From Selaginella tamariscina (lineage: Eukaryota > Streptophyta > Lycopodiopsida > Selaginellales > Selaginellaceae), in contig PUQB01000181.1 in the NCBI GenBank assembly GCA_003024785.1, forward strand, positions 347,338-411,337: a stretch of DNA of 64,000 nucleotides, given 5' to 3'. Shown piece after piece: positions 41 through 59,410 of the stretch. The translations under genes were made by a program, and so were the position numbers. Positions within the stretch are counted from its first letter, which is position 1. Each line of letters opens with the position of its first letter. The notes below the pieces were generated by a model that searched no databases, was not told the DNA's origin, and saw nothing but the letters and a program-made list of their open reading frames with translations.

Positions 41-976
41 TGTCAGAGTTTTTACCTGGTGCCACAAAGGCGGCTTGCCAGGTGCCAACCCTGGAATCCC
101 CTCTCTGGAAACCCCACGGAATCTGGTAAAATAACCCGTATTAGGAACCCAACCCCTAACTGACTAAGCCACGAACGAGACTCACCTTGTGAATCAGGAT
201 ACACGGACTAGCCGAGCTTTAGGTGTCGTTCCTAGCTTGGCGTGGTTGAGGCGGCCGGAGCAAGGCCTCAACCACTAGTTCTGCGGAACGTGAACTCGGG
301 CAATACCTTTGAGCTTGCGAGCAGGTTTTCGGACCAAGGAATCTGGCTAACTCCTTGGAAGTGACGTGCCCTTGTCTCAAAGGCAAGATCCTGCCAACGA
401 TAAGGATAGTCTAACCCTAGGGTGGGTTGTACCCCTGTCGTGTGGAAGTTTGGGCGGCACAACAGAGGGTTGCACCTTGACGACACAAGCTTAGCTTGCA
501 CCGGTAGGAGGTTAACGAGCTCTCTTTTGAACCCAGGAAGCCTCACTACATATACTCTACCTTATTTATGTGACGGACCCCCCCCCCCCGTTTACCTAAA
601 TGAGTAAGTGGGCTGGCACGGAAATGCCAGCCCTTAGAGAAAATGGTTGTCCTAACCTAACCCCTAGGGGGGGTATTAGGGTGGGGTTAGGGCAACCCTA
701 GGGTTAGGTCAACCCTAGGTGTCCCTAACCCTTATTTTGACAAGCTATACTTTATAACCTAGAACGTCAAACCGGGGGAGAGTTTCTAGAAGGTAAGTTC
801 TAGCTTCACCTAGAGTTTCCTGCAAATACCTAATGACACCCGGCCGGACCATCACCAGATACCCAAGTGCACTAAGTGGGCCTGTTTCCTACTACATCTA
901 GGGTTCGTCACACAACTCGGTAGGTAACAACAGTCAAACCCCAAAGTAAAGGGTTGAGTCATAGTAAAATATAACA
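41..976 (-). mobile_element. 5' LTR of an LTR retrotransposon, body outside the window
   Basis: Read on the minus strand, this block starts TGTTATA and ends CTCTGACA, so it has TG...CA ends, and a primer site follows it. It is homologous to the nested 1.8-kb LTR at 15,039-16,850 (shared stretches around 240-300, 455-560, 590-640 and 840-960), but is about half as long because it lacks the counterpart of roughly 15,090-15,950. It carries a poly-C run and many CCCTAA/CCCTAGGG words that resemble plant telomere repeats. No coding capacity is seen. It is a fossil LTR. The family is probably Ty3/gypsy or Ty1/copia, which cannot be decided because the pol region is off the window. Confidence 0.7.
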
Positions 977-15038: not shown

Positions 15039-16850
15039 TGTCAGAGTTTTAACCCAAAGGGCCAACACGTGGCAACACGTGGCTGCCAGATGGCCATTCG
15101 GCATCATCACCCTGTGTGAGCAACGCTAAGTTTCCCAGAACAACCCCAACGACCCCTAGGGTTAGACTCTAATGCCCAAGTGGACAAGAGACTTAGGGTT
15201 TAGCCTAAGTCTCCCTGAGAATGTCTGGCCCCCAGAACCCTTGAGGGATAACCCTAGTTGACTTAGGGTTTTAGAGTGTCTACCCCCAAAACCCTTGAGG
15301 GATAACCCTAGTTGACTTAGGGTCTTGCCCTAGAAGACCTAGACAGGCTCATGCCCTAACCCCATCATGGAGACGTGTGTTCCACACATACCCCCGTGAC
15401 AGAGCTAAGGCATTGTCACTTACCCCTTGAGGAATCACCCTCATCCGGGAGTACAACCCCTTTAGGGCAACAGGGGTACCCTGAACCACGACTAACCCCT
15501 AAGGGTTTTGATGGCCAAGTCATACCCTAGACCTAGGGTTAGTACTTAGTGAGGACACGAGTGTGCGCCGTAGGCGGACATGAGTGTTCTACTAAGCAAA
15601 ACTCCCTAAGGCTAGGTTTGGAATAACCCTAAGCACATGACCTTGCGAGTGCCTCACGAAAGGGCTTCTGCTAACATGTTCAGGTTGTTCAACCCTTGAA
15701 TTCCAAGGAGAACACTCCCCTAGCCAAATGTGCCAAAGCACACCTAGTTATGAGACCTAACCTCCCTTGAGCAAATGCCCAAGGCTTAGCACCCTAGTGC
15801 GAGCACAAGCATGTCTATTTGCTAAAGTATCCAACCCCTTGGGACAAGCCCATGACATAACCCAAAGGGCGGCCTCAGGCATTGTAACCATGTGACGTTT
15901 AGCCCATTGTCACATCTTCATGTGACACTGCCTTCCCCAATGTGGTATCATGCATAGCCCTTAGATTCAAGAGTTGCACCAAGTGCCACAAACGTGGCTC
16001 CTAAATGCCGACTCTAGAACCCCTCAATGAACCCTCAGGAACAAGTAATGAACCTGTCAAACAAGATCCCACGCTCACAGTTGGACAAGGACACGGATGT
16101 GCCTTGCTTGGCCGTGAGTGCTACACCTAGCTTGACGTGGAGGAGGAGGCTGGAGCGAGCCTCAACCTCTGCCTCTTGGAACGTGCATTCCGACAAGACC
16201 TCCTAGGCACGGATTCGCCAACGTTAAGGGTAAGCTACCCCGAAGGTGGGACGTACCCCTGGCATCTAGAAGTTAGGGCGGACAACAGAGGGTTGTACCT
16301 TAACGACACAAGCTGAAGCTTGCACCGACAGAAGAGCAACGAACTCATTCATGAACCCAGGAGCTCTCCTACGTATACTCTACCTTATTTATGTGACGGA
16401 GCCCCCCCCCCCTCTTTCCTGTTTGTATTAGTGGGCTGGCACTGAATTCTAGCCCCTTAGATAAATTAGCAATATGAGCCTATAACTCACCCTTACTCCT
16501 ACCCCTAAACCCTACCCAAGGGGGTGGGTTTTTAGGGCGTGGGTTAGGGCAACCCTAGGGTTAGGTCAACCTAGGGGTGTTCCTAACCCTACTTAACCGC
16601 CAACTCATCTGCAACAACCAATCATCCTATTCGGGACGTCAAAATTGGGGGTGGGTTTTCTAGATGGAATGCTAGCTTCGCCAGAGTTTCCTTGCAAATA
16701 CTTAATGACACCCGGCTGGACCATCACTAGATATCCAAGTGCACTAAGCGGGCCTGTTTCTTCTACACCTAGGGCTTATCAACATAGTACAGTAGGTAAC
16801 AACAGTCAACATCCAAAGTAAAGGGTCGAGTCATAGTAAAAACTATGACA
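15039..16850 (-). mobile_element. Solo LTR nested in the Ty3/gypsy element
   Basis: Inserted in the reverse transcriptase region. Its ends are TGTCA...TGACA, flanked on both sides by the 5-bp target duplication CTTGG (15,034-15,038 and 16,851-16,855). Its 1,812 bp hold no coding sequence. It is homologous to the LTR at 41-976, which is followed by a primer site, so I read this as a solo LTR of the same family left by LTR-LTR recombination. It contains repeated AGGGTTTAG/CCCTAA words and two near-identical stretches (about 15,225-15,260 and 15,280-15,315). It is younger than its host element. Confidence 0.85.
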
Positions 16851-21123: not shown

Positions 21124-23305
21124 TTAGGCATTACCCGAGGATGAACCTGAGGGCAGACAACAGTATCACAATCATGACAAAGAAGAAAAACAACAGACCT
21201 GGAGTAGCACAGTGACGAACTTCGGAAACTCACCAATGCCTGCCAACAAAGGGTCCATGTACTCTCCACCTTCTGATTCAAAGTTTTTCTCATCCTTGTA
21301 GCTCTTGAATTGCAGGCCCAGCATCGACAACCCGTCCTGTCCCATCATAGGTACTATCACATCGAAGCGGCTCTGCAAGGGCTTGCAGATGAGCGCCTTT
21401 CTCAGAAGGTAAGCTTCCTTTAGATGACCGTCCTGCGGCGTAAACTCGATTGGCATGAACGAGTCGAAATTGAGCTTATAGCCCTTGCCAACCTCAGCAG
21501 CAGCCTTGATACTCGGGTCATCATTACCCATAAAATCCGGGCCCATCAACTGTGTTAGAAAATCTTCCACAGTCGCACTTCCATCGCCCTTCTCTGCTCG
21601 GTCCCTAGCTAGCATGATGATGTACCGGCCAACCAGTTCCCCACTTTTGCCCTCGTCAATCAGATAGTCCTGACAAGCCTTCACTACATGCTCCAGTGCT
21701 TTGAGTCGAAACTTTTCACTTTCGAAGACATACTTTGCAGCAGAGGATAACACTGGATCCCACACATCCATAATTGTCACCGAGGTCCTGTCGTCAGATA
21801 TGTCGATCAGCGGACTCATGTACCCGCCTCCGAGGGCTGATGCCAAGTAGCTCTGGGGAACTACAGCCAGGGACAAGCGAGCACTCAACACAGCCATAGC
21901 AGCCTTCAACGTAACATCCCCTTTTTTAACCTGCGCCACCCCTGCCTCAGAGGTACCACCCAAAAGCTTGCGCACTGCCAATGTCTTCAATTTCTCTACA
22001 CTTGTATTTGCCTCAAGCAGCGCAGTCCACAGTGGCCTACCAAACTTGTATAACTCTTCCAGAGTTAAATCTTCTTTTCCGTCGTCCACGCTCAGCCTCG
22101 GCCTGTAAATTGTCTTGACCTGAAAATACAGAGGTATCGGCGACTTCGCACCAGACACGATCGACAAACTCGGATCCAGAGATGCTTCTGAAACAACCAC
22201 GGGTATCTGAGCTTTGGTGTCCACAACCGCGCAGAAGAGTCCTGGTATATGTTGGAAACACCTCCTTATATAATAAGCACTTGATAACCCTGATGAGTCC
22301 CTGAATAGAACAGTGCTGTCATCCAGCACAAAGAGCACCTTCAGCCACTCGCTCCCATTCCCCTTTCTGAACTCGTCCAGTGTCCCCAGTCTCTTCCAGA
22401 CCTTCTTCACCTTTTTCAAAGTTGAGGCTGGTTCTTTCGTCCATTTTCCGTGCCAGCTAGCACCCACCTTCGATTTATGTCCTCGAGACAGCCCACCTGA
22501 TCCGCAGTCCATGCCGAGGAAATGGACTTACCTGTCTCCATTTGAAGCGTCTCCTTCCTATCCTGCTTGCTTGCTACTTCCTCCTCCTTCTCTCGTCTTT
22601 GCTTCTTCTTTTCTCGTATTTTTTGTCGTATTTTACTTCGTTTCAGAGCTGTTTCCTCCTTCGATTTCCTCGCTTTCAGCTTATCAACTCTGTTCCTCAG
22701 AGACTGCAGTGCCGCCGTCAGAGACCGCAGATCCGCCGTCAGAGACCGCAGATCCGCCGTCAGAGACCGCAGATCCGCCGTCAGAGACTCCAGCTCCTTG
22801 CGCTTCTCGAGTTGCATCTTAATATATTCCTCGAGTTGGGTCAAGACCGCCAACAGGAACCCGTAGCCCTCCTCTTCGTTCTTGATGCTGAAGTTATCCG
22901 CTTCCTTGGACCGCAACGGATACCCAGCACCCTTGTTATCCTGAAGGTTCATGTAGAAAACGAAAACCCCTTCTTGGAAAGTTCGACCAAGGACCTTGTC
23001 TTCCCGAAACCGCTGGACTGAACGATGGCAGTGAAAAAGGAATAGATTTGCACACCTTTCGCTTTGTTGATCCATTCGTCAAACCAAGTCAGGAGCCCTT
23101 CGCGAAACTCCCCTCTGTAAGGGACAGTAAACCCAGTTTCGTAGACGGCCAGATCGTCATCCTTAAGCGGCGCGTCGACTCCTCCCTCTTCGCCGCTTAT
23201 CTCAGCGCTCACCTGTGCATAAGTCTTATCGAAAGAATCCTCATCCACCACCGTTTTATTCTGAATCAGACGTTCACGAAGAAGATGAATCACCGCACTA
23301 TTCAT
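21124..23305 (-). pseudogene. CRN-like P-loop NTPase gene, copy 1 (broken)
   Basis: Minus strand. Parts: an N-terminal region with DDDLAVYETGFTVPYRG (about 23,160); a P-loop in VQSSGFGKTRSL (about 23,010); then VFYMNLQDNKGAGYPLRS; a coiled coil with four SLTADLR heptads (about 22,800-22,680); a very basic stretch; and a long C-terminal domain (22,512-21,172) with FGRPLW and a VKTIYRPR strand. A GTGAGT...CAG intron (21,147-21,233) precedes a short last exon ending in SSSGNA. The SSGxGKTR P-loop plus GRPLW region recalls the large NTPase families linked to Crinkler (CRN) proteins of oomycetes, fungi and some plants. The protein would be an ATPase-type regulator or effector, probably intracellular. 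The copy is broken a small number of times. Function is inferred from motifs only. Confidence 0.6.
22680..22800 (-). repeat. 21-bp (one-heptad) tandem repeat in the CRN-like coiled coil
   Basis: In-frame 21-bp unit encoding SLTADLR. There are four units here, two in the copy at about 30,165-30,225 and three in the copy at about 42,130-42,215. Each unit is exactly one coiled-coil heptad, so copy-number change lengthens the coil without breaking its register. Confidence 0.85.
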
Positions 23306-28720: not shown

Positions 28721-30798
28721 TTAGGCATTACCCGAGGATGAACCTGGGGCAGACAACAGTATCACAATCATGACAAAGAAGAAAAAACAACAGACCTGGA
28801 GTAGCACAGTGACGAACTTCGGAAACTCACCAATGCCTGCCAACAAAGGGTCCATGTACTCTCCAGCTTCTGATTCAAAGTTTTTCTCATCCCTGTAGCT
28901 CTTGAATTGCAGGAGCCTGTTGTCCTGTCCCATCATAGGCACTATCGATCGAAACGGCTCTGCGAGGGCCTGCAGATGAGCGCCTTTCTCAAAAGGTAAG
29001 CTTCCTTTAGATGACCGTCCTGCGGCGTAAACTGGATCGGCATGAAGGAGTCGAAATTGAGTTTATAGCCCTCGCCGACCTCGGCAGCAGCCTTGATACT
29101 CGGGTCATCATTACCCAAAAAATCCGGGCCCATCAACTGTGTTAGAAAATCTTCCACAGTTGCACTTCCATCGCCCTTCTCTGCTCGGTCCCTAGCTCGC
29201 ATGATGATGTACCGGCCAACCAGTTCCCCACTTTTGCCCTCATCAATCACAAGTCCTGACAAGCCTTCACTACATGCTCCAGTGCTTTGAGACGGAATTC
29301 TTCACTGTCGAAAACATACTTTGCAGCAGAGGATAACACTGGATCCCACACATCCATAATTGTCACCGAGGTCCTGTCGTCGGATATGTCGATCAGCGGA
29401 CTCATGTACCCGCCTCCGAGGGCTGATGCCAAGTAGCTGTGGGGAACTACAGCCAGAGACAAGCGAGCACTCAACACTGCCATAGCAGCCTTCAACAAAA
29501 CATCCCCGTTTTTAACCTCCACCACCCCATCCTCAGAGGTACCACCCAAAAGCTTGCGCACTGCCAATGTCTTCAATTTCTCTACACTTGTATTTCCCTC
29601 GAGCAGCGCCTTCCACAGTGGCCTACCAAACTTGTATAACTCCTCAAGAGTTAAATCTTCTTTTCCGTCGTCCACGCTCGGCCTCGACCCGAAAATATGG
29701 AGGTATCGACTAGGATCCAGAGATGCTTCAGAAGCAACCACGGGTATCTGAGCTTTGGTGTCCAACAACCGCACAGAAGAGTCCTGGTATATGTTGGAAA
29801 CACCTCCTTATATAATAAGCACTTGATAACCCTGATGCGTCCCTGAAGAGAACGGCGCTCCCATTCCCCTTTCTGAACTCGCCCAGTTCCCCGAGTCTCT
29901 TCCAGACCTCCTTCACCTTTTTCAAAGTTGAGGTTGGTTCTTTCCTGCCAGCTAGCACCCACCTTCGACGTATGTCCTCGAGACAGCCCCATGATCCGCA
30001 GTGGAAATGGACTTATCTGTCTCCATTTCAAGCGTCTCCTTCCTCTTCCTCTTTCCTTGCTACTTCCTCCTCCTTCTCTCGTATTTTTCGTCGTATTTTA
30101 TTTTGTTCCAGAGCTGTTTCCGCCTTCGATTTCCTCGCTTTCAGCTTATCGACTCTGTTCCTCAGACACTGCAGTGCCGCCGTCAGAGACTGCAGATCCG
30201 CCGTCAGAGACTCCAGCTCCTTGCGCTTCCCGAGCTGCATCTTAATATATTCCTCGAGTTGGGTCAAGACCGCCAACAGGAACCCGTAGCCCTCCTCTTC
30301 GTTCTTGATGCTGAAGTTATCCGCTTCCTTGGACCGCAACGGATACCCAGCACCCTTGTTATCCTGAAGGTTCATGTAGAAAACGAAAACCCCCTTCTTG
30401 GAAAGTTCGACCAAGGACCTTGTCTTCCCGAAACCGCTGGACTGAACGATGGCCGTGAAAAAGGAATCACCTCGATTCGCTTTGTCGATCCAGTCGTCAA
30501 ACCAAGTCAGGAGCCCTTCGCAAAACTCCCCTCTGTAAGGGACAGTAAACCCAGTTTCATAAACGGCCAGATCGTCATCCTTAAGCGGTGCCCTTCCGGC
30601 GCTTACCTCAGCCTTCACCTCTGCATAACACCGATCAAACAAAGCCGCAAGCGCCGGATATTTCTGAAACCAGACGTGTACGAAAAAGACGAATCTGCTG
30701 GCTATCCATACGGCAAGAACTGCCCAGAACAACAGAACCTTACGAAAACGCCCTTGTCTTTTTACAAAAATCTTGCTAGTGGCTCTGTAACTTCGCAC
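28721..30798 (-). pseudogene. CRN-like P-loop NTPase gene, copy 2 (broken)
   Basis: The same gene family as copy 1 (21,124-23,305). The N-terminal part is open over 30,798-30,028 (256 codons): a hydrophobic first segment (VLLFWAVLAVWIASRFVFFV) that could be a membrane anchor or signal and is not clear in copy 1, DDDLAVYETGFTVPYRG, the P-loop VQSSGFGKTRSL, and a coiled coil with only two SLTADLR-type heptads. The C-terminal domain continues to 28,721 with FGRPLW and the same 3' intron. It is broken several times and has lost some internal pieces. A gene Y fragment is convergent at its 3' side. Confidence 0.6.
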
Positions 30799-30799
30799 C

Positions 30800-31040
30800 C
30801 AGAATCGACTGCGTTCAGATGAAAGGCTTTCCCTCTATATAAATCTCTTCTTTTGGTGCATTCTTTGAGTGCAAGAAGTAATGCTGGAATGTGTCTCTTC
30901 TTCTAGTGGCTCTATAACGTGTCCTTTTTCCTGCATATGCATGTTCTATTTGCATCCGTTCTCCTCCTGTTACAAGTGTGTGCGTGTGTATATGTGATAA
31001 GCATATAGAGCTATAAGTCGAGTTTAGCTGTATTTTCAAC
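30800..31040 (-). pseudogene. PPR-module leader remnant, copy 3
   Basis: Shares with the two PPR remnants the segment around APKEEIY.EGKP and a leader with HAYAG.RTRYRATRRRDT, but not the PPR motif itself. It lies upstream of the CRN-like copy 2 in gene direction. Its outer edge (about 30,985-31,020) is an inverted match to 23,895-23,925. Confidence 0.45.
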
Positions 31041-40550: not shown

Positions 40551-42712
40551 TTAGGCATTACCCGAGGATGAACCTGGGGCAGACACAGTATCACAATCAT
40601 GACAAAGAAGAAAAACAACAGACCTGGAGTAGCACAGTGACGAACTTCGGAAACTCACCAATGCCTGCCAACAAAGGGTCCATGTACTCTCCACCTTCTG
40701 ATTCAAAGTTTTTCTCATCCCTGTAGCTCTTGAATTGCAGGCCCAGCATCGACAGCCTGTTGTCCTGTCCCATCATAGGCACTATCGCATCGAAACGGCT
40801 CTGCAAGGGCCTGCAGATGAGCGCCTTTCTCAAAAGGTAAGCTTCCTTTAGATGACCGTCCTGCGGAGTAAACTCGATCGGCATGAACGAGTCGAAATTG
40901 AGCTTATAGCCCTTGCCGACCTCGGCAGCAGCCTTGATACTCGGGTCATCATTACCCATAAAATCCGGGCCCATCAACTGTGTTAGAAAATCTTCCACAG
41001 TCGCACTTCCATCGGCCTTCTCTGCTCGGTCCCTAGCTCGCATGATGATGTACCGGCCAACCAGTTCCCCACTTTTGCCCTCGTCAATCAGATAGTCCTG
41101 ACAAGCCTTCACTACGTGCTCCAGTGCTTTGACTCGAAACTTTTCACTGTCGAAAACATACTTTGCAGCTGCAGATAACACTGGATCCCACGCATCCATA
41201 ATTGTCACCGAGGTCCTGTCGTCAGATATGTCGATCAGCGGACTCATGTACCCGCCTCCAAGGGCTGATGCCAAGTAGCTCTGGGGAACTACAGCCAGAG
41301 ACAAGCGAGCACTCAACACTGCCATAGCAGCCTTCAACGTAACATCCCCTTTTTTAACCTCCGCCACCCCTGCCTCAGAGGTACCACCCAAAAGCTTGCG
41401 CAGCGCCAATGTCTTCAATTTCTCTACACTTGTATTTGCCTCGAGCAGCGCAGTCCACAGTGGCCTACCAAACTTGTATAACTCTTCGAGAGTTAAATCT
41501 TCTTTTCCGTCGTCCACGCTCGGCCTCGGCCTATAAATTGTCTTGACCTGAAAATACAGAGGTATCTGCGACTTCGCACCAGACACGATCGACAAACTCG
41601 GATCCAGAGATGCTTCTGAAGCAACCACGGGTATCTGAGCTTTGGTGTCCACAACCGCGCAGAAGAGTCCTGGTATATGTTGGAAACACCTCCTTATATA
41701 ATAAGGAGGTGATAACCCTGATGCGTCCCTGAATAGAACAGTGATTTCATCCAGCACAAAGAGGACCTTAAGCCACTCGCTCCCACTCCCATTCCCCTCT
41801 CTGAACTGGTCCAGTTCCCCGAGTCTCTCCCAGACCTCCTTCACCTTTTCCAGAGTTGAGGCTGGTTCTTTCGTCCATTTTCGTGCCAGCTAGCACCCAC
41901 CTTCGATTTATGTCCTCGAGACAGCCCCACCTGATCCGCAGTCCATGCCGAGGAAATGGACGTACCTGTCTCCATTTGAAGCGTCTCCTTCCTCTCCTGC
42001 TTGCTTGCTACTTCCTCCTCCTTCTCTCGTCTTTGCTTCTTCTTCTCTCGTATTTTTTGTCGTATTTTACTTCGTTCCAGAGCTGTTTCCTCCTTCGATT
42101 TCCTCGCTTTCAGCTTATCAACTCTGTTCCTCAGAGACTGCAGTGCCGCCGTCAGAGACCGCAGATCCGCCGTCAGAGACTGCAGATCCGCCGTCAGAGA
42201 CTCCAGCTCCTTGCGCTTCTCGAGTTGCTTCTTAATATATTCGTCGAGTTGGGTCAAGACCGCCAACAGGAACCCGTAGCCCTCCTCTTCGTTCTTGATG
42301 CTGAAGTTATCCGCTTCCTTGGACCGCAACGGATACCCAGCACCCTTGTTATCCTGAAGGTTCATGTAGAAAACGAAAACCCCCTTCTTGGAAAGTTCGA
42401 CCAAGGACCTTGTCTTCCCGAAACCGCTGGACTGAACGATGGCCGTGAAAAAGGAATAGATTTGCACACCTCGATTCGCTTTGTCGATCCATTCGTCAAA
42501 CCAAGTCAGGAGCCCTTCGCAAAACTCCCTCTGTAAGGGACAGTAAACCCAGTTTCGTAGACGGCCAGATCGTCATCCTTAAGCGGCGCGTCGACTCTTT
42601 CCTCTCCGCCGCTTGTCTCAGCCTTCACCTCTGCATAAGTCTGCTCAAAAAATCCGCATCCGCCGGCCGTTTCTAACAGACGTGCATGATAAAGACGAAA
42701 ATCCTTACTCAT
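40551..42712 (-). pseudogene. CRN-like P-loop NTPase gene, copy 3 (most complete, still broken)
   Basis: Counterpart of copy 1 in unit II. Long open stretches are 42,467-41,841 (P-loop VQSSGFGKTRSL, VFVFYMNLQDNKGAG, coiled coil with three heptads, basic region) and 41,844-40,597 (415 codons, the whole C-terminal domain with FGRPLW and GRYIIMRARDRAE), which abut. An N-terminal piece lies at 42,712-42,506. The same 3' intron and short last exon are present. There are about two breaks, fewer than in the other copies. Read with copies 1 and 2, the family architecture is N-domain, P-loop NTPase, coiled coil, basic linker, C-terminal domain of about 400 residues. The CRN-type assignment rests on motif memory. 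Confidence 0.6.
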
Positions 42713-47652: not shown

Positions 47653-47659
47653 AGAGGTA
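47653..47659. repeat. Target-site duplication (left) of the composite satellite
   Basis: AGAGGTA. It is repeated at 56,289-56,295 on the other side. The undisturbed site reads CAGAGGTACCACC in copies 1-3 (for example near 29,535). Confidence 0.75.
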
Positions 47660-47674
47660 TTGGAAAACGGATCT

Positions 47675-47745
47675 GGACAGGCCGGGGATTGAACCCGAGA
47701 CCTCTCACACCGGTGTCAAGTGCTCTACCACTGAGCTACCTACCC
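47675..47745 (-). other. tRNA-like sequence (SINE-type head), left
   Basis: The minus strand folds as a tRNA: acceptor GGGTAGG/CCTGTCC (two wobble pairs), D arm TAGCTCAGTGGTAGAGC (Pol III box A), and T arm with GGTTCAATCC (box B). The anticodon stem is imperfect (CTTGA/GTGAG) and position 33 is A, not the invariant U, so it is probably not a working tRNA. It is typical of the tRNA-derived part of a SINE. Confidence 0.65.
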
Positions 47746-47749
47746 GGGT

Positions 47750-49290
47750 TGTGTGCATATTGAGCTACCTGCCTGGGTTGTGTGCATTATTCATATTTCA
47801 GCTTAGTTTTAACCACTCCCCGGGTTGTGTGCATATTCCAGCTTAGTTTTTAAACACTCCCCTCCTAGCTGAACACACCACACATCCCTACCTGCCAGTC
47901 GGGCCTACCACAGGCTATGGTTGGGGCAGGTGTGTGCATATTTAGCTTAGTTTTAACACTCCCCCGGGTTGCATATTCAGCTTAGTTTTAACACTCCCCT
48001 CTGAACACACCACACATCCCTACCTGCCAGTCCGGGCCTACCACAGGCTATGGTTGGGTAGGTTGTGTGCATATTCAGCTTAGTTTTAACACTCCCCCGG
48101 GTTGTGTGCATATTCAGCTTAGTTTTAACACTCCCCTCCTAAGCTGAACACACACACATCCCTACCTGCCAGTCCGGGCCTTAGTTTTAACACTCCCCCG
48201 GGTTGTGTGCATATTCAACTTAGTTTTAACACTCCCCTCCTAAGCTGAACACACCACACATCCCTACCTGCCAGTCCGGGCCTACCACAGGCTATGGTTG
48301 GGGCAGGTTGTGTGCATATTCAGCTTAGTTTTAACACTCCCCCGGGTTGTGTGCATATTCAGCTTAGTTTTAACACTCCCCTCCTAAGCTGAACACACCA
48401 CACATCCCTACCTGCCAGTCCAGGCCTTAGTTTTAACACTCCCCCGGGTTAAGCTGAACACACCACACATCCCTACCTGCCAGTCCGGGCCTTAGTTTTA
48501 ACACTCCCCCGGTTGTGTGCATATTCAACTTAGTTTTTAACACTCCCCTCCTAAGCTGAACACACACACATCCCTACCTGCCAGTCCGGGCCTACCACAG
48601 GCTATGGTTGGGGCAGGTTGTGTGCATATTCAGCTTAGTTTTAACACTCCCCGGGTTGTGTGCATATTCAGCTTAGTTTTAACACTCCCCTCCTAAGCTG
48701 AACACACCACACATCCCTACCTGCCAGTCCGGGCCTTAGTTTTAACACTCCCCCGGGTTGTGTGCATATTCAGCTTAGTTTTAACACTCCCCCCTAAGCT
48801 GCCCTACTGCCAGTCCGGGCCTTAGTTTTAACACTCCCCCGGGTTGTGTGCATATTCAACTTAGGTTTTAACACTCCCCTCCTAAGCTGAACACACCACA
48901 CATCCCTACCTGCCAGTCCGGCCTACCACAGGCTATGGTTGGGGCAGGTTGTGTGCATATTCAGCTTAGTTTCCCTACCTGCCAGTCCGGGCCTACCACA
49001 GGCTATGGTTGGGGCAGGTTGTGTGCATATTCAGCTTAGTTTTAACACTCCCCCGGGTTATGTGCATATTAGCTTAGTTTTAACACTCCCCTCCTAAACT
49101 GAACACACCACACATCCCTACCTGCCAGTCCGGGCCTTAGTTTTAACACTCCCCCGGGTTGTGTGCATATTCAGCTTAGTTTTAACACTCCCCTCCTAAG
49201 CTGCCCTACCTGCCAGTCCGGGCCTTAGTTTAACACTCCCCGGGTTGTGTGCATATTCAACTTAGTTTTAACACCCCCTCCTAAGCTGAA
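47750..49290. repeat. Satellite sub-array A
   Basis: Tandem units built of TGTGCATATTCAGCTTAG, TTTTAACACTCCCC, CCTAAGCTGAACACACCAC and ACCTGCCAGTCCGGGCC, with unit length roughly 110-200 bp and many partial units. It resumes at 50,330-50,780. Confidence 0.8.
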
Positions 49291-50330
49291 CACACCACAC
49301 ATCCTACCTGCCATCCACCACCAGGCCGGGGATTGAACCCGAGACCTACCTGCCAGTCCGGGCCTTAGTTTTAACACTCCCCCGGTTGTGTGCATATTCA
49401 ACTTGTGTGCTACCGATCTGGACAGGCCGGGGATTGAACCCGAGACCTACCTGCCAGTCCGGGTCTGGACAGGCCGGGGATTGAACCCGAGACCTACCTG
49501 CCAGTCCGGGTTGTGTGCATATTCAACTTGGTGCTACCGATCTGGACAGGCCGGGATTGAACCGAGAGCTACCGATCTGGACAGGCCGGGGATTGAACCC
49601 GAGACCTACCTGCCAGTCCGGGCTTAGTCCCGCCTGCCCAGAACCCGAGACCTACCTGCCAGTCCGGGTCTGGACAGGCCGGGGATTGAACCCGAGACCT
49701 ACCTGCCAGTCCGGGTCTGGACAGGCCGAAGATTGAACCCGAGACCTACCTGCCAGTCCGGGTTGTGTGCATATTCAACTTGTGTGCTACCGATCTGGAC
49801 AGGCCGGGGATTGAACCCGAGAGCTACCGATCTGGACAGGCCGGGGATTGAACCCGAGACCTACCTGCCAGTCCGGGCCTTAGTTTTAACACTCCCCCGG
49901 GTTGTGTGCATATTCAACTTGTGTGCTACCGATCTGGACAGGCCGGGGATTGAACCCGAGACCTATCTACCGATCTGGACAGGCGGGGACAGGCCGGGGA
50001 TTGAACCCGAGACCTATCTACCGATCTGGACAGGCCGGGGATTGAACCCGAGATGTGCATATTCAACTTGTGTGCTACCCCCGGGTTGTGTGCATATTCA
50101 ACTTGTGTGCTACCGATCTGGACAGGCCGGGGATTGAACCCGAGACCTACCTGCCAGTCCGGGTTGTGTGCATATTCAATTGTGTGCTACCGATCTGGAC
50201 AGGCCGGGGATTGAACACGAGACCTACCTACGATCTGGACAGGCCGGGGATTGAACCCGAGACCTACTTGCCAGTCCGGGGATTGAACCCGAGACCTACC
50301 TGCCAGTCCGGGTTGTGTGCATATTCAGCT
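49290..50330. repeat. Satellite sub-array B with repeated Pol III box B
   Basis: Tandem units of about 60-100 bp containing GATCTGGACAGGCCGGGGAT, TGAACCCGAGACC and CTACCTGCCAGTCCGGG. On the minus strand each unit carries GGTTCAATCC, the box B and T arm of the terminal tRNA-like sequence, without box A. About fifteen copies lie within 1 kb. Confidence 0.8.
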
Positions 50331-50779
50331 TAGTTTTAACACTCCCTCCTAAGCTGAACACACCACACATCCCTACCTGCCAGTCCGGGCCTTAGTTTTA
50401 ACACTCCCCCGGGTTGTGTGCATATTCAGCTTAGTTTTAACACTCCCCTCCTAAGCTGCCCTACCTGCCAGTCCGGGCCGGGGGAGTGTTAAATGTGCAT
50501 ATTCAGCTTAGTTTTAACACTCCCCTCCTAAGCTGCCCTACCTGCCAGTCCGGGCCTTAGTTTTAACACTCCCCCGGGTTGTGTGCATATTCAACTTAGT
50601 TTTAACACTCCCCCGGGTTGTGGCATATTCAACTTAGTTTTAACACTCCCCCGGGTTGTTGCATATTCAACTTAGTTTTAACACTCCCCCGGGTTGTGTG
50701 CATATTCAACTTAGTTTAACACTCCCCCGGTTGTGTGCATATTCAACTTAGTTTTAACACTGGTCACAGGCCATCATCC

Positions 50780-52345
50780 CTACCTGCCAGTCCGGGTTGT
50801 GTGCATATTCAACTGTGCATATTCAACTTAGTTTTAACACTGGTCACAGGCCATCATCCCTACCTGCCAGTCCGGGCCTAGGTTGTGTGCATATTCAACT
50901 GTGCATATCAACTTAGTTTTAACACTGGTCACAGGCCATCATCCCTACCTACCTGCCAGTCCGGGCCTACCACAGGTCACAGGCCATCATCCCTACCTAC
51001 CTGCCAGTCCGGGCCTACCACAGGTCACAGGCCATCATCCCTACCTGCCAGTCCGGGCCTACCACAGGTCACAGGCCATCATCCCTACCTGCCACACCAC
51101 ACATCCACACATCCCTACCACAGGTCACAGGCCATCATCCCTACCTGCCACACCACACATCCACAATCCCTACCTGCCAGTCCGGGCCTAGTCCGGGCCT
51201 ACCACAGGTCACAGGCCATCATCCCTACCTGCCACACCACACATCCACACATCCCTACCTGCCAGTCCGGGCCTAGTCCGGGCCTACCACAGTCACAGTC
51301 CGGGCCTACCACAGGTCACAGGCCATCATCCCTACCTGCCAGTCCGGGCCTACCACAGGTCACAGGCCATCATCCCTACCTGCCACACCACACATCCACA
51401 CATCCTACCTGCCAGTCCGGGCCTAGTCCGGGCTGCCAGTCCGGGCCTAGTCCGGGCCTACCACAGGTCACAGGCCATCATCCCTACCTGCCACACCACA
51501 CATCCACACATCCCTACCTGCTAGTTCGGGCCTAGTCCGGGCCTACCACAGGTCACAGTCCGGGCCTACCACAGGTCACAGGCCATCACCCTACCTGCCA
51601 GTCCGGGCCTAGTCCGGGCTGCCAGTCCGGGCCTAGTCCGGGCCTACCACAGGTCACAGGCCATCATCCCTACCTGCCCACCCACATCCACACATCCCTA
51701 CCTGCCAGTCCGGGCCTAGTCCGGGCCTACCACAGGTCACAGTCCGGGCCTACCACAGGTCACAGGCCATCATCCCTACCTGCCAGTCCGGGCCTAGTCC
51801 GGGCCTACCACAGGTCACAGTCCGGGCCTACCACAGGTCACAGGCCATCATCCTACCTGCCAGTCCGGGCCTACCACAGGTCACAGGCCATCATCCCTAC
51901 CTGCCACACCACACATCCACACATCCCTACCTGCCAGTCCGGGCCTACCACAGGTCATCCAACCATAGCTCTGATACCGGGTCTACCACAGGTCACAGGC
52001 CATCATCCTACCTGCCACACCACACATCCACACATCCCTACCTGCCAGTCCGGGCCTAGTCCGGGCCTACCACAGGTCACAGGCCATCATCCCTACCTGC
52101 CAGTCCGGGCCTACCACAGGTCACAGGCCATCATCCCTACCTGCCAGTCCGGGCCTACCACAGGTCACAGACCATCATCCCTACCTGCCACACCACACAT
52201 CCACCACAGGTCACAGGCCATCATCCCTACCTGCCAGTCCGGGCCTACCACAGGTCACAGGCCATCATCCCTACCTGCCACACCACACATCCACCACAGG
52301 TCACAGGCCATCATCCCTACCTGCCAGTCCGGGCCTACCACAGGA
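50780..52345 (+). repeat. Satellite sub-array C, forward
   Basis: Unit of about 46 bp: ACAGGTCACAGGCCATCATC, CCTACCTGCCAGTCCGGG, CCTACC. Interspersed with CACACCACACATCCACACAT blocks. Confidence 0.85.
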
Positions 52346-53812
52346 GCTATGGTTGGATGACCTGTGGTAGGCCCGGGCTGGCAGGTAGGGATGATGGCTG
52401 TGACCTGTGGTAGGATGGCCTTGACCTGTGGTAGGCCCGGACTGGCAGGTAGGGATGATGGCCTGTGACCTGTGGTAGGCCCGGACTGGCAAGTAGGGAT
52501 GATGGCCTGTGACCTGTGGTAGGCCCGGACTGGCAGGTAGGGATGATGGCCTGTGACCTGTGGTAGGCCCGGACTGGCAGGTAGGGATGATGGCCTGTGA
52601 CCTGTGGTAGGCCCGGACTAGGCCCGGACTGACAGGTAGGGATGATGGCCTGTGACCTATGGTAGGCCCGGACTGGCAGGTAGGGATGATGGCCTGTGAC
52701 CTGTGGTAGGTCCGGCCTAGGGATGATGGCCTGTGACCTGTGGTAGGCCCGGACTAGGCCCGGACTGGCAGGTAGGGATGATGGCCTGTGACCTGTGGTA
52801 GGCCCGGACTGGCAGGTAGGGATGATGGCCTGTGACCTGTGGTAGGCCCGGACTAGGCCCGGACTGACAGGTAGGGATGTGTGGATGTGAGCTATGGTTG
52901 GATGACCTGTGGTAGGCCTAGACTGGCAGGTAGGGATGATGGCCTGTGACCTGTGGTAGGCCCGGGCTGGCAGGTAGGGATGATGGCCTGTGACCTGTGG
53001 TAGGATGATGGCCTGTGACCTGTGGTAGGCCCGGACTGGCAGGTAGGGATGATGGCCTGGACCTGTGGTAGGCCCGGACTGGCAGGTAGGGATGATGGCA
53101 TGTGACCTGTGGTAGGCCTGGACTGGCTTGTAGGGTGGATGGCCTGACCTGTGGTAGGCCCGGACTGGCAGGTAGGGATGATGGCCTGTGACCTGTGGTA
53201 GGTCCGGGCCTAGGGATGATGGCCTGTGACCTGTGGTAGGCCGGACTAGGCCGGACTGGCAGGTAGGGATGATGGCCTGTGACCTGTGGTAGGCCCGGAC
53301 TGGCAGGTAGGAATGATGGCCTGTGACCTGTGGTAGGCCCGGACTGGCAGGTAGGGATGTGTGGATGTGAGCTATGGTTGGATGACCTGTGGTAGGCCCG
53401 GACTAGGCCCGGACTGGCAGGTAGGGATGATGGCCTGTGACCTGTGGTAGGCCGGACTAGGCCCGGACTGGCAGGTAGGGATGATGGCCTGTGACCTGTG
53501 GTAGGCCCGGACTGGCAGGTAGGAATGATGGCCTGTGACCTGTGGTAGCCGGACTGGCAGGTAGGGATGTGTGGATGTGAGCTATGGTTGGATGACCTGT
53601 GGTAGGCCCGGACTAGGCCCGGACTGGCAGGTAGGGATGATGGCCTGTGACCTGTGGTAGGATGATGGCCTGTGACCTGTGGTAGGCCCGGACTGGCAGG
53701 TAGGGATGTGTGGATGTGAGCTATGGTTGGATGACCTGTGGTAGGCCCGGACTGGCAGGTAGGGATGTGTGGATGTGAGCTACGGTTGGATGACCTGTGG
53801 TAGGCCCGGTAC
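52346..53812 (-). repeat. Satellite sub-array C, inverted
   Basis: The same 46-bp unit on the opposite strand. The switch is at CCTACCACAGG|AGCTATGGTTGGATGA|CCTGTGGTAGG (about 52,334-52,371), so the two arrays form a palindrome of about 3 kb with a 16-bp centre. Confidence 0.85.
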
Positions 53813-55760
53813 CTAAACCCTACCTGCCAGCCCGGGCCTACCACAGGTCACAGGCCATCATCCCTACCTGCCAGCCCGGGCCTACCACAGGTCACAGGCC
53901 ATCATCCCTACCTGCCAGCCCGGGCCTACCACAGGTCACAGGCCATCATCCAACCATAGCTCACATCCACACATCCCTACCTGCCAGTCCGGGCTGGTAG
54001 GCCCGGACTGTGTGGATGTGCGGGTAGGGTTTAGGTACCGGGCCTACCACAGGTCACAGGCCATGATGTGCGGGTAGGGTTTAGGTACCGGGCCTACCAC
54101 AGGTCACAGGCCATCATCCCTACCAGCCCGAGCCTACCACAGGTCACAGGCCATCATCCAACCATAGCTCACATCCACACATCCCTACCTGCCAGTCCGG
54201 GCCTACCAGCAGGTCACAGGCCATGATGTGCGGGTAGGGTTTAGGTACCGGGCCTACCACAGGTCACAGGCCATCATCCCTACCAGCCCGGGCCTACCAC
54301 AGGTCACAGGCCATCATCCAACCATAGCTCACATCCACACATCACAGGCCATCATCCAACCATAGCTCACATCCACACATCCCTACCTGGGGCCTACCAC
54401 AGGTCACAGGCCATCATCCCTACCTGCCAGCCCGGGCCTACCACAGGTCACAGGCCATCATCCAACCATAGCTCACATCCACACATCCCTACCTGCCAGT
54501 CCGGGCTGGTAGGCCCGGAATGTGTGGATGTGCGGGTAGGGTTTAGGTACCGGGCCTACCACAGGTCACAGGCCATGATGTGCGGGTAGGGTTTAGGTAC
54601 CGGGCCTACCACAGGTCACAGGCCATCATCCCTACCGGCACAACAGAAGGTTGCACTTTAACGACACAAGCTAAAGCTTGCACCAATAAAAGAGCAACGA
54701 ACTCAGTCTTAGGTACCGGGCCTACCACAGGTCACAGGCCATGATGTGCGGGTAGGGTTTAGGTACCGGGCCTACCACAGGTCACAGGCCATCATCCCTA
54801 CCAGCCGAGCCTACCACAGGTCACAGGCCATCATCCAACCATAGCTCACATCCACACATCCCTACCTGCCAGTCGGGCCTACCAGCAGGTCACAGGCCAT
54901 GATGTGCGGGTAGGGTTTAGGTACCGGGCCTACCACAGGTCACAGGCCATCATCCCTACCAGCCCGGGCCTACCACAGGTCACAGGCCATCATCCAACCA
55001 TAGCTCACATCCACACATCCCTACCTGCCAGTCCGGGCTGGTAGGCCGGACTGTGTGGATGTGCGGGTAGGGTTAGGTACCGGTGCGGGTAGGGTTTAGG
55101 TACCGGGCCTACCACAGGTCACAGGCCATCATCCCTACCTGCCAGCCCGGGCCTACCACAGGTCACAGGCCATCATCCCTACCGCTGGTAGGCCCGGACT
55201 GGCAGGTAGGATGTGTGGATGTGAGCTATGGTTGGATGACCTGTGGTAGGCCCGGTACCTAAACCCTACCTGCCAGCCTGTGGTAGGCACAGGCCATCAT
55301 CCCTACCTACCAGCCCGGGCCTACCACAGGTCACAGGCCATCGCACAGGCCATCATCCCTACCATAGCTCACATCCACACATCCCTACCTGCCAGTCCGG
55401 GCTGGTAGGCCCGGACTGTGTGGATGTGCGGGTAGGGTTTAGGTACCGGTGCGGGTAGGGTTTAGGTACCGGGCCTACCACAGGTCACAGGCCATCATCC
55501 CTACCTGCCAGCCCGGGCCTACCACAGGTCACAGGCCATCATCCCTACCGCTGGTAGGCCCGGACTGGCAGGTAGGGATGTGTGGATGTGAGCTATGGTT
55601 GGATGACCTGTGGTAGGCCCGGTACCTAAACCCTACCTGCCAGCCTGTGGTAGGCACAGGCCATCATCCCTACCTACCAGCCCGGGCCTACCACAGGTCA
55701 CAGGCCATCGCACAGGCCATCATCCCTACCTACCAGCCCGGGCCTACCACAGGTCACAGG
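53813..55760. repeat. Satellite sub-array of mixed orientation
   Basis: Blocks of the 46-bp unit alternate in direction and are joined by GGTAGGGTTTAGGTACC, TGTGTGGATGTGAGCTATGG and their complements. A higher-order repeat of about 370 bp is visible (55,080-55,440 against 55,450-55,760). Some junctions are short palindromes (for example around GGCCCGGTACC). Confidence 0.8.
54637..54706. mobile_element. LTR fragment captured in the satellite
   Basis: About 70 bp (GGCACAACAGAAGGTTGCAC onward) matching the LTR family at 455-520 and 16,280-16,350. It interrupts the satellite after CATCCCTACC. It is a fossil scrap of the solo-LTR family. Confidence 0.8.
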
Positions 55761-56180
55761 CCATCATCCCTACCTGCCACAGGTCACCACACATCATCCC
55801 TACCTGCCACACATCACATCCACCACAGATCTCCATCCACATCATCCCTACCTGCCACACCACACATCCACCACAGATCTCCATCCACATCATCACCACA
55901 CATCCACCACAGATCTCCATCCACATCATCCCTACCTGCCACACCACACATCCACCACAGATCTCCATCCACATCATCCCTACCTGCCACACCACACATC
56001 CACCACATCATCCCTACCTGCCACACCACACATCCACCACAGATCTCCATCCACATCATCCCTACCTGCCACACCACACATCCACCACATCATCCCTACC
56101 TGCCACACCACACATCCACCACAGATCTCCATCCACATCATCCCTACCTGCCACACCACACTCCACCACAGCTCTGATGG
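55761..56180 (+). repeat. Satellite sub-array D
   Basis: Units of about 46 bp: CATCCACCACAGATCTCCAT, CCACATCATCCCTACCTGCC, ACACCACA. They are more uniform than the other arrays, suggesting recent expansion. Confidence 0.85.
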
Positions 56181-56186
56181 AGATCT

Positions 56187-56257
56187 GGACAGGCCGGGGA
56201 TTGAACCCGAGACCTCTCACACCGGTGTCAAGTGCTCTACCACTGAGCTACCTGCTC
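56187..56257 (-). other. tRNA-like sequence (SINE-type head), right
   Basis: Same as 47,675-47,745 except in the 5' acceptor (GAGCAGG). Boxes A and B are intact. Same orientation as the left copy, which makes the pair terminal direct repeats. Confidence 0.65.
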
Positions 56258-56288
56258 GGTTGTGTGCATATTCAGCTTAGTTTTAACA

Positions 56289-56540
56289 AGAGGTACCACC
56301 CAGAAGCTTGCGCACTGCCAATGTCCTACAGTCCTACACTTGTATTTCCCTCGAGCAGCGCCTTCCACAATGGCCTACCAAACTTGCATAACTCCTCAAG
56401 AGTTAAATCTTCTTTTCCGTCGTCCACGCTCGGCCTCGGCCTGTGAATTGTCTTGACCCGAAAATACGGAGGTATCGGCGACTTCGCACCAGACACGATC
56501 GACAAACTAGGATCTAGAGATGCTTCTGAAGCAACCACGG
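56289..56540 (-). pseudogene. CRN-like copy 4, remaining part after the satellite
   Basis: Continues the C-terminal domain of the CRN-like gene (FGRPLWKALLEGNTSV, then EASLDPSLSIVSGAKSP). It ends at 56,540, where AT-rich spacer sequence like 31,135 onward begins. It opens with the right-hand target duplication of the satellite (56,289-56,295). Confidence 0.65.
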
Positions 56541-58734: not shown

Positions 58735-59410
58735 GAGACTACTAGGTTCACCCGAGCTCAAGGGGCACCCAAAGCCCGATTGCAACTGCTGTCGGGCTTT
58801 CAGCCGCCCCTAGCTGGGATGGCATGAGCTCGGCCAGCATTGGCCAAGCTCATGGGCCAGCCGAAAGCCCGGCAGCAACTGTTGCCGGGCTTCTGCCCAC
58901 CATAGCTATGCTGGCTTGAGCTCGGCCAATGCTAGCCGGGCTCATGGGCTGGCCGAAAGCTCGGCAACAACTGTTGCCGGGCTTTTTGCCGATTATGGCT
59001 GGGCTGGCTTGAGCTCCTCATGGGGCAGTAGAAAGCTTGGCAGCAACTGCTGTCGGGCCCTAGTTGGGCTGGCTTGAGCTCGACCGCATTAGCGGAGCTC
59101 ATGGGGCAATAGAAAGCCCAGCAGCAACTGCTGCCGGGCTTTCTGCCACCCTGGTTGGGCTGGCTTGAGCTCAGCCAGCATTGGCCGAGCTCATGGGGCA
59201 GCCCAAAACCTGGCAGCTACTGCTGCCAGGCTTTCTGTCGCCCTGTTGGACTGGCTTGAGTTCAGCCAGCATTGGCTGAGCTCATGGGGCAGCAAAAAGC
59301 CCGGCAAAACTGTTGCCGCGCTTTCTGCCACCCTTGGCTGGGCTGGCCAAGCTCATGGGGCGGCCCAAAGCCCCGCAGCAACTGCTACTGGGCTTTCTAC
59401 CTCCCTGGCC
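58735..59410 (+). repeat. GC-rich tandem repeat in the Harbinger element
   Basis: About six imperfect units of 90-120 bp, each with GGCTTGAGCTCGGCCAGCAT, GAGCTCATGGGGC and a hairpin-forming GCAGCAACTGCTGCCGGGCT. The composition contrasts strongly with the AT-rich element around it. It lies just upstream of the Myb-like ORF and may be a captured sequence that expanded. Confidence 0.75.

Follow-up and report, generated by a model that had tools for sequence, protein, structure and literature searches.

We examined a window of 64,000 nucleotides from Selaginella tamariscina (assembly GCA_003024785.1, contig PUQB01000181.1, forward-strand positions 347,338 to 411,337), in which four tandem paralogues of one gene lie at approximately 20.6-23.0, 28.4-30.8, 40.1-42.5, and 46.6-56.6 kb. 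The last of these carries an 8.6-kb array of tandem repeats, which is very probably a copy of a Helenus-type terminal-repeat retrotransposon in miniature (TRIM), a nonautonomous long terminal repeat (LTR) retrotransposon of about 0.33 kb, that then grew in place to its present length. At least two of the four paralogues have a GFGKTRS motif in their frames, and the insertion-bearing one is also without about 300 bp that the other three have. A Pfam scan of the frames at 21172-22527 and 30028-30834 matched no family, leaving unconfirmed the "CRN-like" label that an initial annotation of this stretch had given the gene.

The array is a single insertion of 8,631 bp at 47658-56288. The heptamer AGAGGTA occurs once at the homologous, empty site in each of the three sister paralogues (21949, 29535, and 41377), whereas the array has one on either side (47653 and 56289), beyond which the same gene resumes. 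The sister paralogues are open across the site (frames 21172-22527, 29247-29807, and 40597-41889), and the element probably interrupts former coding sequence of the fourth gene copy. Integration followed the LTR-element route, with a 5-bp target duplication, into a stretch that is open in three sister paralogues, and the initial annotation was right to see one insertion with a target duplication in a site uninterrupted in three related copies, although its span of 47660..56288 places the left border 2 bp too far in. Both ends of the array carry a tRNA-like block on the minus strand, called by ARAGORN and Rfam (47674-47745, 46.9 bits; 56186-56257, 41.6 bits). As had been claimed, it is the same block in the same orientation, with 93/97 positions identical; over these 97 bp, the LTRs of the window copy are 3 substitutions and one gap apart.

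The genome searched was the assembly of 300,702,823 bases (300.7 Mb) in 1,391 contigs. With the left terminal block as the query, we obtained 55 matches from 40 scored of 127 candidates, and 35 regions around these matches were read. The short relatives found there consist, in the tRNA sense, of a repeat (TGTTAAAACTAAG...TTTTCCAATA), directly followed by TGGTATCAGAGC, then an internal sequence ending in a GGGGGAG-type tract, and then the repeat again. We take TGGTATCAGAGC to be the plant initiator-Met primer-binding site. The family therefore has two direct LTRs, and its short copies have a primer-binding site after the 5' LTR and a polypurine tract before the 3' LTR. A short noncoding internal part is likewise seen in the short copies, measuring 79-88 bp in L022 (two arms), L023, L024 (two arms), and L043, but not in the expanded window copy, where the internal part is about 8.4 kb; at other loci of the family the internal parts are longer and amplified.

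The terminal repeats of the short relatives are 120 bp long, run from TGTT to CAATA, and include a tRNA-like block with an A box, a B box, and a run of four T's. An alignment of 43 LTRs gave the same length of 120 bp, with per-position conservation of 93-98% in the A-box stretch (TAGCTCAGTGG), 91-100% in the B-box stretch (GGTTCAATCC), and 93-100% in the T run near the LTR end. The junction between the LTR end and the primer-binding site had 145 genome matches with up to 3 mismatches, a count that takes in other LTR families sharing the same primer-binding site, versus 2 for the reversed pattern, and a 35-base LTR stretch had 64 matches versus 0 for its control. ARAGORN defined no anticodon in 13/25 of its calls, and the block resembles a relic carrying a promoter more than it does a functional tRNA. 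As to its source, a Cys gene and two Lys genes tied at 54/72 identities among 18 genomic tRNA genes, so that no assignment was made.

Target duplications were counted across the family by pairing LTR starts without a preceding purine tract with LTR ends without a following primer-binding site, which gave 83 pairs at 31 loci. Left out of this count were L001-L008 and L012, whose places coincide with those of other loci; L058, which falls within L031's place; L044-L046, of which L044 and L045 are represented by their joined form, C1267; and the loci of tRNA genes. An exact 5-bp duplication was present in 19 of the 83 end pairs and at 15 of the 31 loci, whereas a control with shifted right flanks yielded 9/3,320 pairs, or 0.2 expected against the 19 observed. 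A chance match of the flanking bases, which the initial annotation had listed among the outcomes that would refute it, can accordingly be set aside, and the genome check it proposed, for duplication-flanked loci and for short copies, turned up both.

The 15 loci represent 13 distinct insertions, since the window copy and C1267, like L038 and L039, are each one site on two contigs. The smallest of these insertions are solo LTRs (118 and 120 bp), and sizes extend to 1,451 bp, with the window copy standing at 8,631 bp; solo LTRs with a target duplication are those at L015 and L026. Because the LTR ends in CAATA in 13/13 distinct insertions with an exact duplication, and a host TA precedes the duplication in only 3/13 (both tallies read by eye), the extra TA of AGAGGTA is the LTR terminus, which matches the host by chance. 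The target-site duplication of the window copy is thus AGAGG, of 5 bp, and the 7-bp duplication originally described stands as a duplication but not in its length. At L013, 4/5 duplication bases match. The array ends on C73 and C473 were sought in the stretches fetched, where they showed no exact duplication, and a C849 element of about 5.9 kb, flanked by CAACC and CAACA, was left out of the count for its one mismatch.

For the most part, the array consists of pieces of the element itself, drawn from its internal domain, purine tract, and LTR. Tandem Repeats Finder reports arrays across it that overlap one another and whose periods run from 11 to about 400. Short family copies cover at least 68.5% of its bases, a figure that falls to 0% when the array is reversed and is likewise 0% in one equally long flank; most of the remaining sequence is, by eye, finer shuffles of the same words. 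The blocks lie broadly in the order of the element, from the 5' LTR on the right through internal-domain repeats and then LTR-start, purine-tract, and B-box repeats to the 3' LTR on the left, with one inverted block at approximately 52345-53810. The four array types first distinguished are a fair division, but they are largely rearranged pieces of one short element. The features of the insertion are as follows.

47653..47657, no strand: target-site duplication, left copy (AGAGG), with the empty site at 21949, 29535, and 41377
47658..47813, minus: 3' LTR of about 156 bp (family norm, 120 bp), ending in CAATA, with a GGGGAG-type purine tract before it
47674..47745, minus: tRNA-like block of the 3' LTR (A box, B box), from ARAGORN and Rfam
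47814..49312, minus: pieces of the LTR 5' end and the polypurine tract, interspersed with pieces of the internal domain (borders drawn by eye)
49313..50310, minus: block rich in LTR B-box pieces, with 14 B boxes and no A box
50311..50760, minus: LTR 5'-end pieces in a 38-39-bp unit (Tandem Repeats Finder)
50761..52344, minus: satellite of internal-domain pieces, with a 44-bp unit and longer composites
52345..53810, plus: internal-domain satellite, the inverted block, which by eye shares its inversion junction with the second copy of the locus
53811..55757, minus: internal-domain satellite with the private word GCGGGTAGGGTTTAGGTACC and short inverted patches near 55.2-55.6 kb
54636..54708, no strand: captured fragment (73 bp) of an unrelated high-copy dispersed repeat
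55790..56170, no strand: 48/82-bp subarray with the private word GATCTCCATCCACATC
56171..56177, minus: remnant of the primer-binding site, TCAGAGC of TGGTATCAGAGC (by eye), which is intact in short copies
56182..56288, minus: 5' LTR, starting with TGTTAAAACTAAG at 56288, last bases lost
56186..56257, minus: tRNA-like block of the 5' LTR, from ARAGORN and Rfam
56289..56293, no strand: target-site duplication, right copy (AGAGG)

The A box with its anticodon segment occurs only twice, once in each terminal LTR of the window copy, and the 3' LTR contains, by eye, an internal duplication of part of the LTR. The B-box pattern has 16 matches in the window, namely 14 at 49329-50279, all on one strand and without A boxes, and the two LTR copies. 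The second copy of the locus, on contig C1267, has 23 B boxes, 22 of them in an A-box-free block (C1267:38110-39767). A tRNA-Leu that ARAGORN calls at 49796-49879, inside the B-box-rich block, was taken as spurious.

To ask where the satellite sequence occurs, we searched three diagnostic words across the assembly, allowing up to 3 mismatches, and found that they are private to this insertion site. The 44-bp unit has 43 genome matches, of which 28 lie in the window array, 15 in C1267, and 0 elsewhere, while all 12 matches of GCGGGTAGGGTTTAGGTACCGGGCCTACC and all 6 of CACAGATCTCCATCCACATCATCCCTACC lie in the window array. Contig C1267 is 97-98% identical to the window locus over the flanks and has the same insertion at the same site; it is an allele or recent duplicate of that locus. 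Its insert, at 7.1 kb, is shorter and differently arranged, although the inversion junction is common to both (by eye), and the two words GCGGGTAGGGTTTAGGTACCGGGCCTACC and CACAGATCTCCATCCACATCATCCCTACC were not found in it. Given that the inversion and the 44-bp unit are present in both versions, they are probably older than the split between them, and the private blocks probably arose later in one version or were lost from the other.

Other members of the family have also been amplified. We found amplified segments in 13/44 loci (12 distinct sites), these 44 having been chosen through best matches and word hits rather than at random, with some of them second copies of one site. The amplified segment varies by locus: the internal part is amplified in 11/13 and B boxes in 5/13, C1059 shows mainly the LTR tail and primer-binding site, and C486 shows the anticodon and B-box part. 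For 73% of 108 internal units, the nearest neighbor came from the unit's own locus; when the locus labels were shuffled 30 times, this share averaged 13% (maximum, 20%). Own-locus clustering reached 0.79-1.0 in the four longest arrays. In addition, the LTR end, target duplication, and host flank are repeated together three times at C486 and twice at C449, and the LTR end with the target duplication occurs twice at C947. Such duplications must postdate insertion, and for this reason growth in place is the best reading for the window copy too. Given that its diagnostic words are private, that other copies carry private arrays, and that two copies have duplicated host flank, the satellite most likely grew in place, and the initial annotation's suggestion of expansion after insertion agrees best with these results. 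For the window site itself, growth in place is read from the other copies and the private words.

Several published systems resemble what we observed. Helenus/TRIMp3 elements are TRIMs with tRNA-derived sequence in their LTRs (Kojima 2024, PMC10886601). They make 5-bp duplications in plants and fungi and are moved by an autonomous LTR element, which is Copia in fungi; the only plant case there is Helenus-1_SMo of Selaginella moellendorffii, with an LTR of 120 bp, an internal part of 85 bp, and 5-bp duplications (PMC10886601). The family described here is like Helenus-1_SMo in its tRNA-derived LTR sequence, primer-binding site, purine tract, and 5-bp duplications, in its LTR length (120 bp in both), and in its internal part (79-88 bp versus 85 bp), but its host is S. 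tamariscina. The layout for which the initial annotation knew no named element is therefore that of Helenus. Unlike Helenus, whose longest family is 1,263 bp (PMC10886601), the window copy measures 8,631 bp; it is a known kind of element in an extreme state, about 26-fold longer than the short form. A tandem-array passage of that paper concerns zebrafish LTR-11_DR, and the word "satellite" has no match in its text.

Cassandra elements, which carry 5S rRNA sequence in TRIM LTRs (PMC7215508), likewise combine an LTR-embedded RNA polymerase III (Pol III) promoter with tandem TRIM growth, and the string TGGTATCAGAGC is part of the search pattern used for them (PMC7215508). They differ in that the embedded sequence here is tRNA rather than 5S and in that Cassandra arrays are single LTRs alternating with internal domains, whereas the window copy has two LTRs and subfragment repeats. 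TRIMs have been reported in S. moellendorffii, and tandem structures are common among TRIMs (Genome Biol 2016, 17:7, PMC4717578); unlike those tandemly arrayed TRIMs, the window copy does not have at least three LTRs alternating with internal parts. Satellites derived from LTR retrotransposons offer a further parallel: there, a dispersed element carries a short array in its interior, and at some of its insertions this array expands into satellite DNA (PMC7004042; reviewed in PMC12628747). In contrast to the cases in PMC7004042, which start from short arrays, mostly in Ogre-type Ty3/gypsy elements, the present family has an internal part of about 85 bp and an array-free short form, with different segments amplified per locus. 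In the literature searched, we came across no TRIM, Helenus or otherwise, with a copy described as having grown into a satellite private to its locus.

As to mechanism, the element may have been mobilized in trans by a Ty1/copia element with the same initiator-Met-type primer-binding site, and its LTR may be transcribed by Pol III. Once the element had integrated, small duplications in its internal part (about 85 bp) and in the neighboring LTR sequence would have seeded tandem copies, which could then have grown to 8.6 kb by slippage, unequal exchange, and repair-type template switching. One locus on C58 (L050, near 117158) has a Copia-type coding end, recognized by eye and not by a domain search, and a 3' LTR, which pass precisely at the primer-binding site into the internal part and 3' LTR of our family. 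This chimera is suggestive of template switching between copackaged RNAs and, by its sequence, would fit a Ty1/copia partner. Since an S. moellendorffii TRIM has a Ty3/gypsy large relative (PMC4717578), Copia should not be assumed for all Selaginella TRIMs.

Several points weigh against reading the array as a Helenus-type TRIM grown in place. The family has the Helenus features that we compared, and it is likened to Helenus-1_SMo by lengths and layout, not by sequence. The Ty1/copia partner is putative, and Pol III transcription of the LTR is a prediction from sequence; the A and B boxes are no better conserved than much of the remaining LTR, so that the alignment does not demonstrate selection on the promoter. 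ARAGORN calls a tRNA-like gene in only 20/35 loci scanned, in one of which (L044) it lies in the array only. The window copy retains only 7/12 bases of the primer-binding site, 16/31 loci have no exact duplication (through decay, nested arrays, or wrong end pairing), and the internal units of L010 are not clustered by locus (0.08). Finally, the length of the array rests on the assembly.

This last point bears on an alternative in which the array is real, although its length and fine order are partly a product of assembling noisy long reads. Many one-base length changes in short runs between units (seen by eye) are as expected of uncorrected long reads, but two contigs agree on where the array sits and on its inversion junction while differing in their private blocks, and the LTRs and duplication are in both; we regard such an artifact as unlikely, though not negligible. 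One could also picture the Helenus family as a satellite nursery, in which the LTR's Pol III unit, through TFIIIC at B boxes and transcription-replication collision, might provoke local breakage and recopying that give rise to private satellites. On this view, the 16 B boxes clustered at the window site (and the 23 of the second copy) might recruit TFIIIC and act as a chromatin boundary of the extra-TFIIIC type. We consider this idea improbable, and the predominance of the internal part over B boxes among the amplified segments weighs against it; a B-box focus of amplification is, on the same counts, unsupported.

Might the same element instead have expanded wholly or mostly in a donor and inserted as a multikilobase element, with only later length change at the window site? 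Such a donor would also leave an exact 5-bp duplication around an 8.6-kb insert, and an RNA of 8.6 kb is, as general knowledge, not too long for an LTR element. We nevertheless consider this improbable: no donor was seen, the diagnostic words occurring at no other site in the 300.7-Mb assembly with up to 3 mismatches, the host-flank duplications at other copies necessarily arose after insertion, and the primer-binding site of the window copy is broken.

The two origins first proposed for the array, a tRNA-derived short interspersed nuclear element (SINE) that inserted and then expanded and a mobile satellite, have next to no probability in our view. A SINE would suit the tRNA-like block at both ends and the target duplication, but the anatomy of the short copies includes direct LTRs, a primer-binding site of the initiator-Met type, a purine tract, and 5-bp duplications and lacks a 3' A/T tail, solo LTRs exist (L015, L026), and about 30 bp lie upstream of the tRNA part, where copying from a SINE promoter is not expected. 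An array moving as a unit, for example, via an extrachromosomal circle, would accommodate the duplication that brackets it, yet the LTR ends explain that duplication, and the 44-bp satellite is present only at the window insertion and its second copy. A DNA transposon with short inverted ends, considered for the AAAAC common to both termini, was dropped on the LTRs and primer-binding site.

If the Helenus-type TRIM did grow in place, the window locus is informative because the start of a satellite is usually hidden, arrays being old and everywhere. Here, that start is tied to the insertion of a roughly 330-bp element, whose empty site is known and whose grown array exists in two versions; together with the sister insertions, several with private arrays of their own, this makes the birth of satellites testable in a 300-Mb plant genome. 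S. tamariscina is probably the second Selaginella with Helenus, and the locus probably shows that a miniature element can become multikilobase in size, most likely without moving again.

Other insertions of the family have inverted layouts. L022 (C971:238750-240208) and L024 (C706:161124-162616) are one inverted insertion of 1.46-1.49 kb on two contigs, with two family arms whose LTR 3' ends point outward and with a flanking 5-bp duplication, TTGAC; the center of L022 holds, by eye, a captured gene-like piece that is itself inverted. L009/L063 (C512:75354-79321) is a 3.97-kb insertion with an internal array. Both of its outer ends are LTR 5' ends (TGTT), which face opposite ways, and the 5-bp duplication AAAAC lies on either side of it. 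The 73-bp piece captured in the window array gave 40 scored matches of 1,665 candidates in the genome. Window positions 455-719 and 16282-16576 also match it, each followed by a GGGTTAGGGCAACCCTA tandem, and are probably two copies of the dispersed repeat. A separate minisatellite with a 91-92-bp unit lies at 58755-59347.

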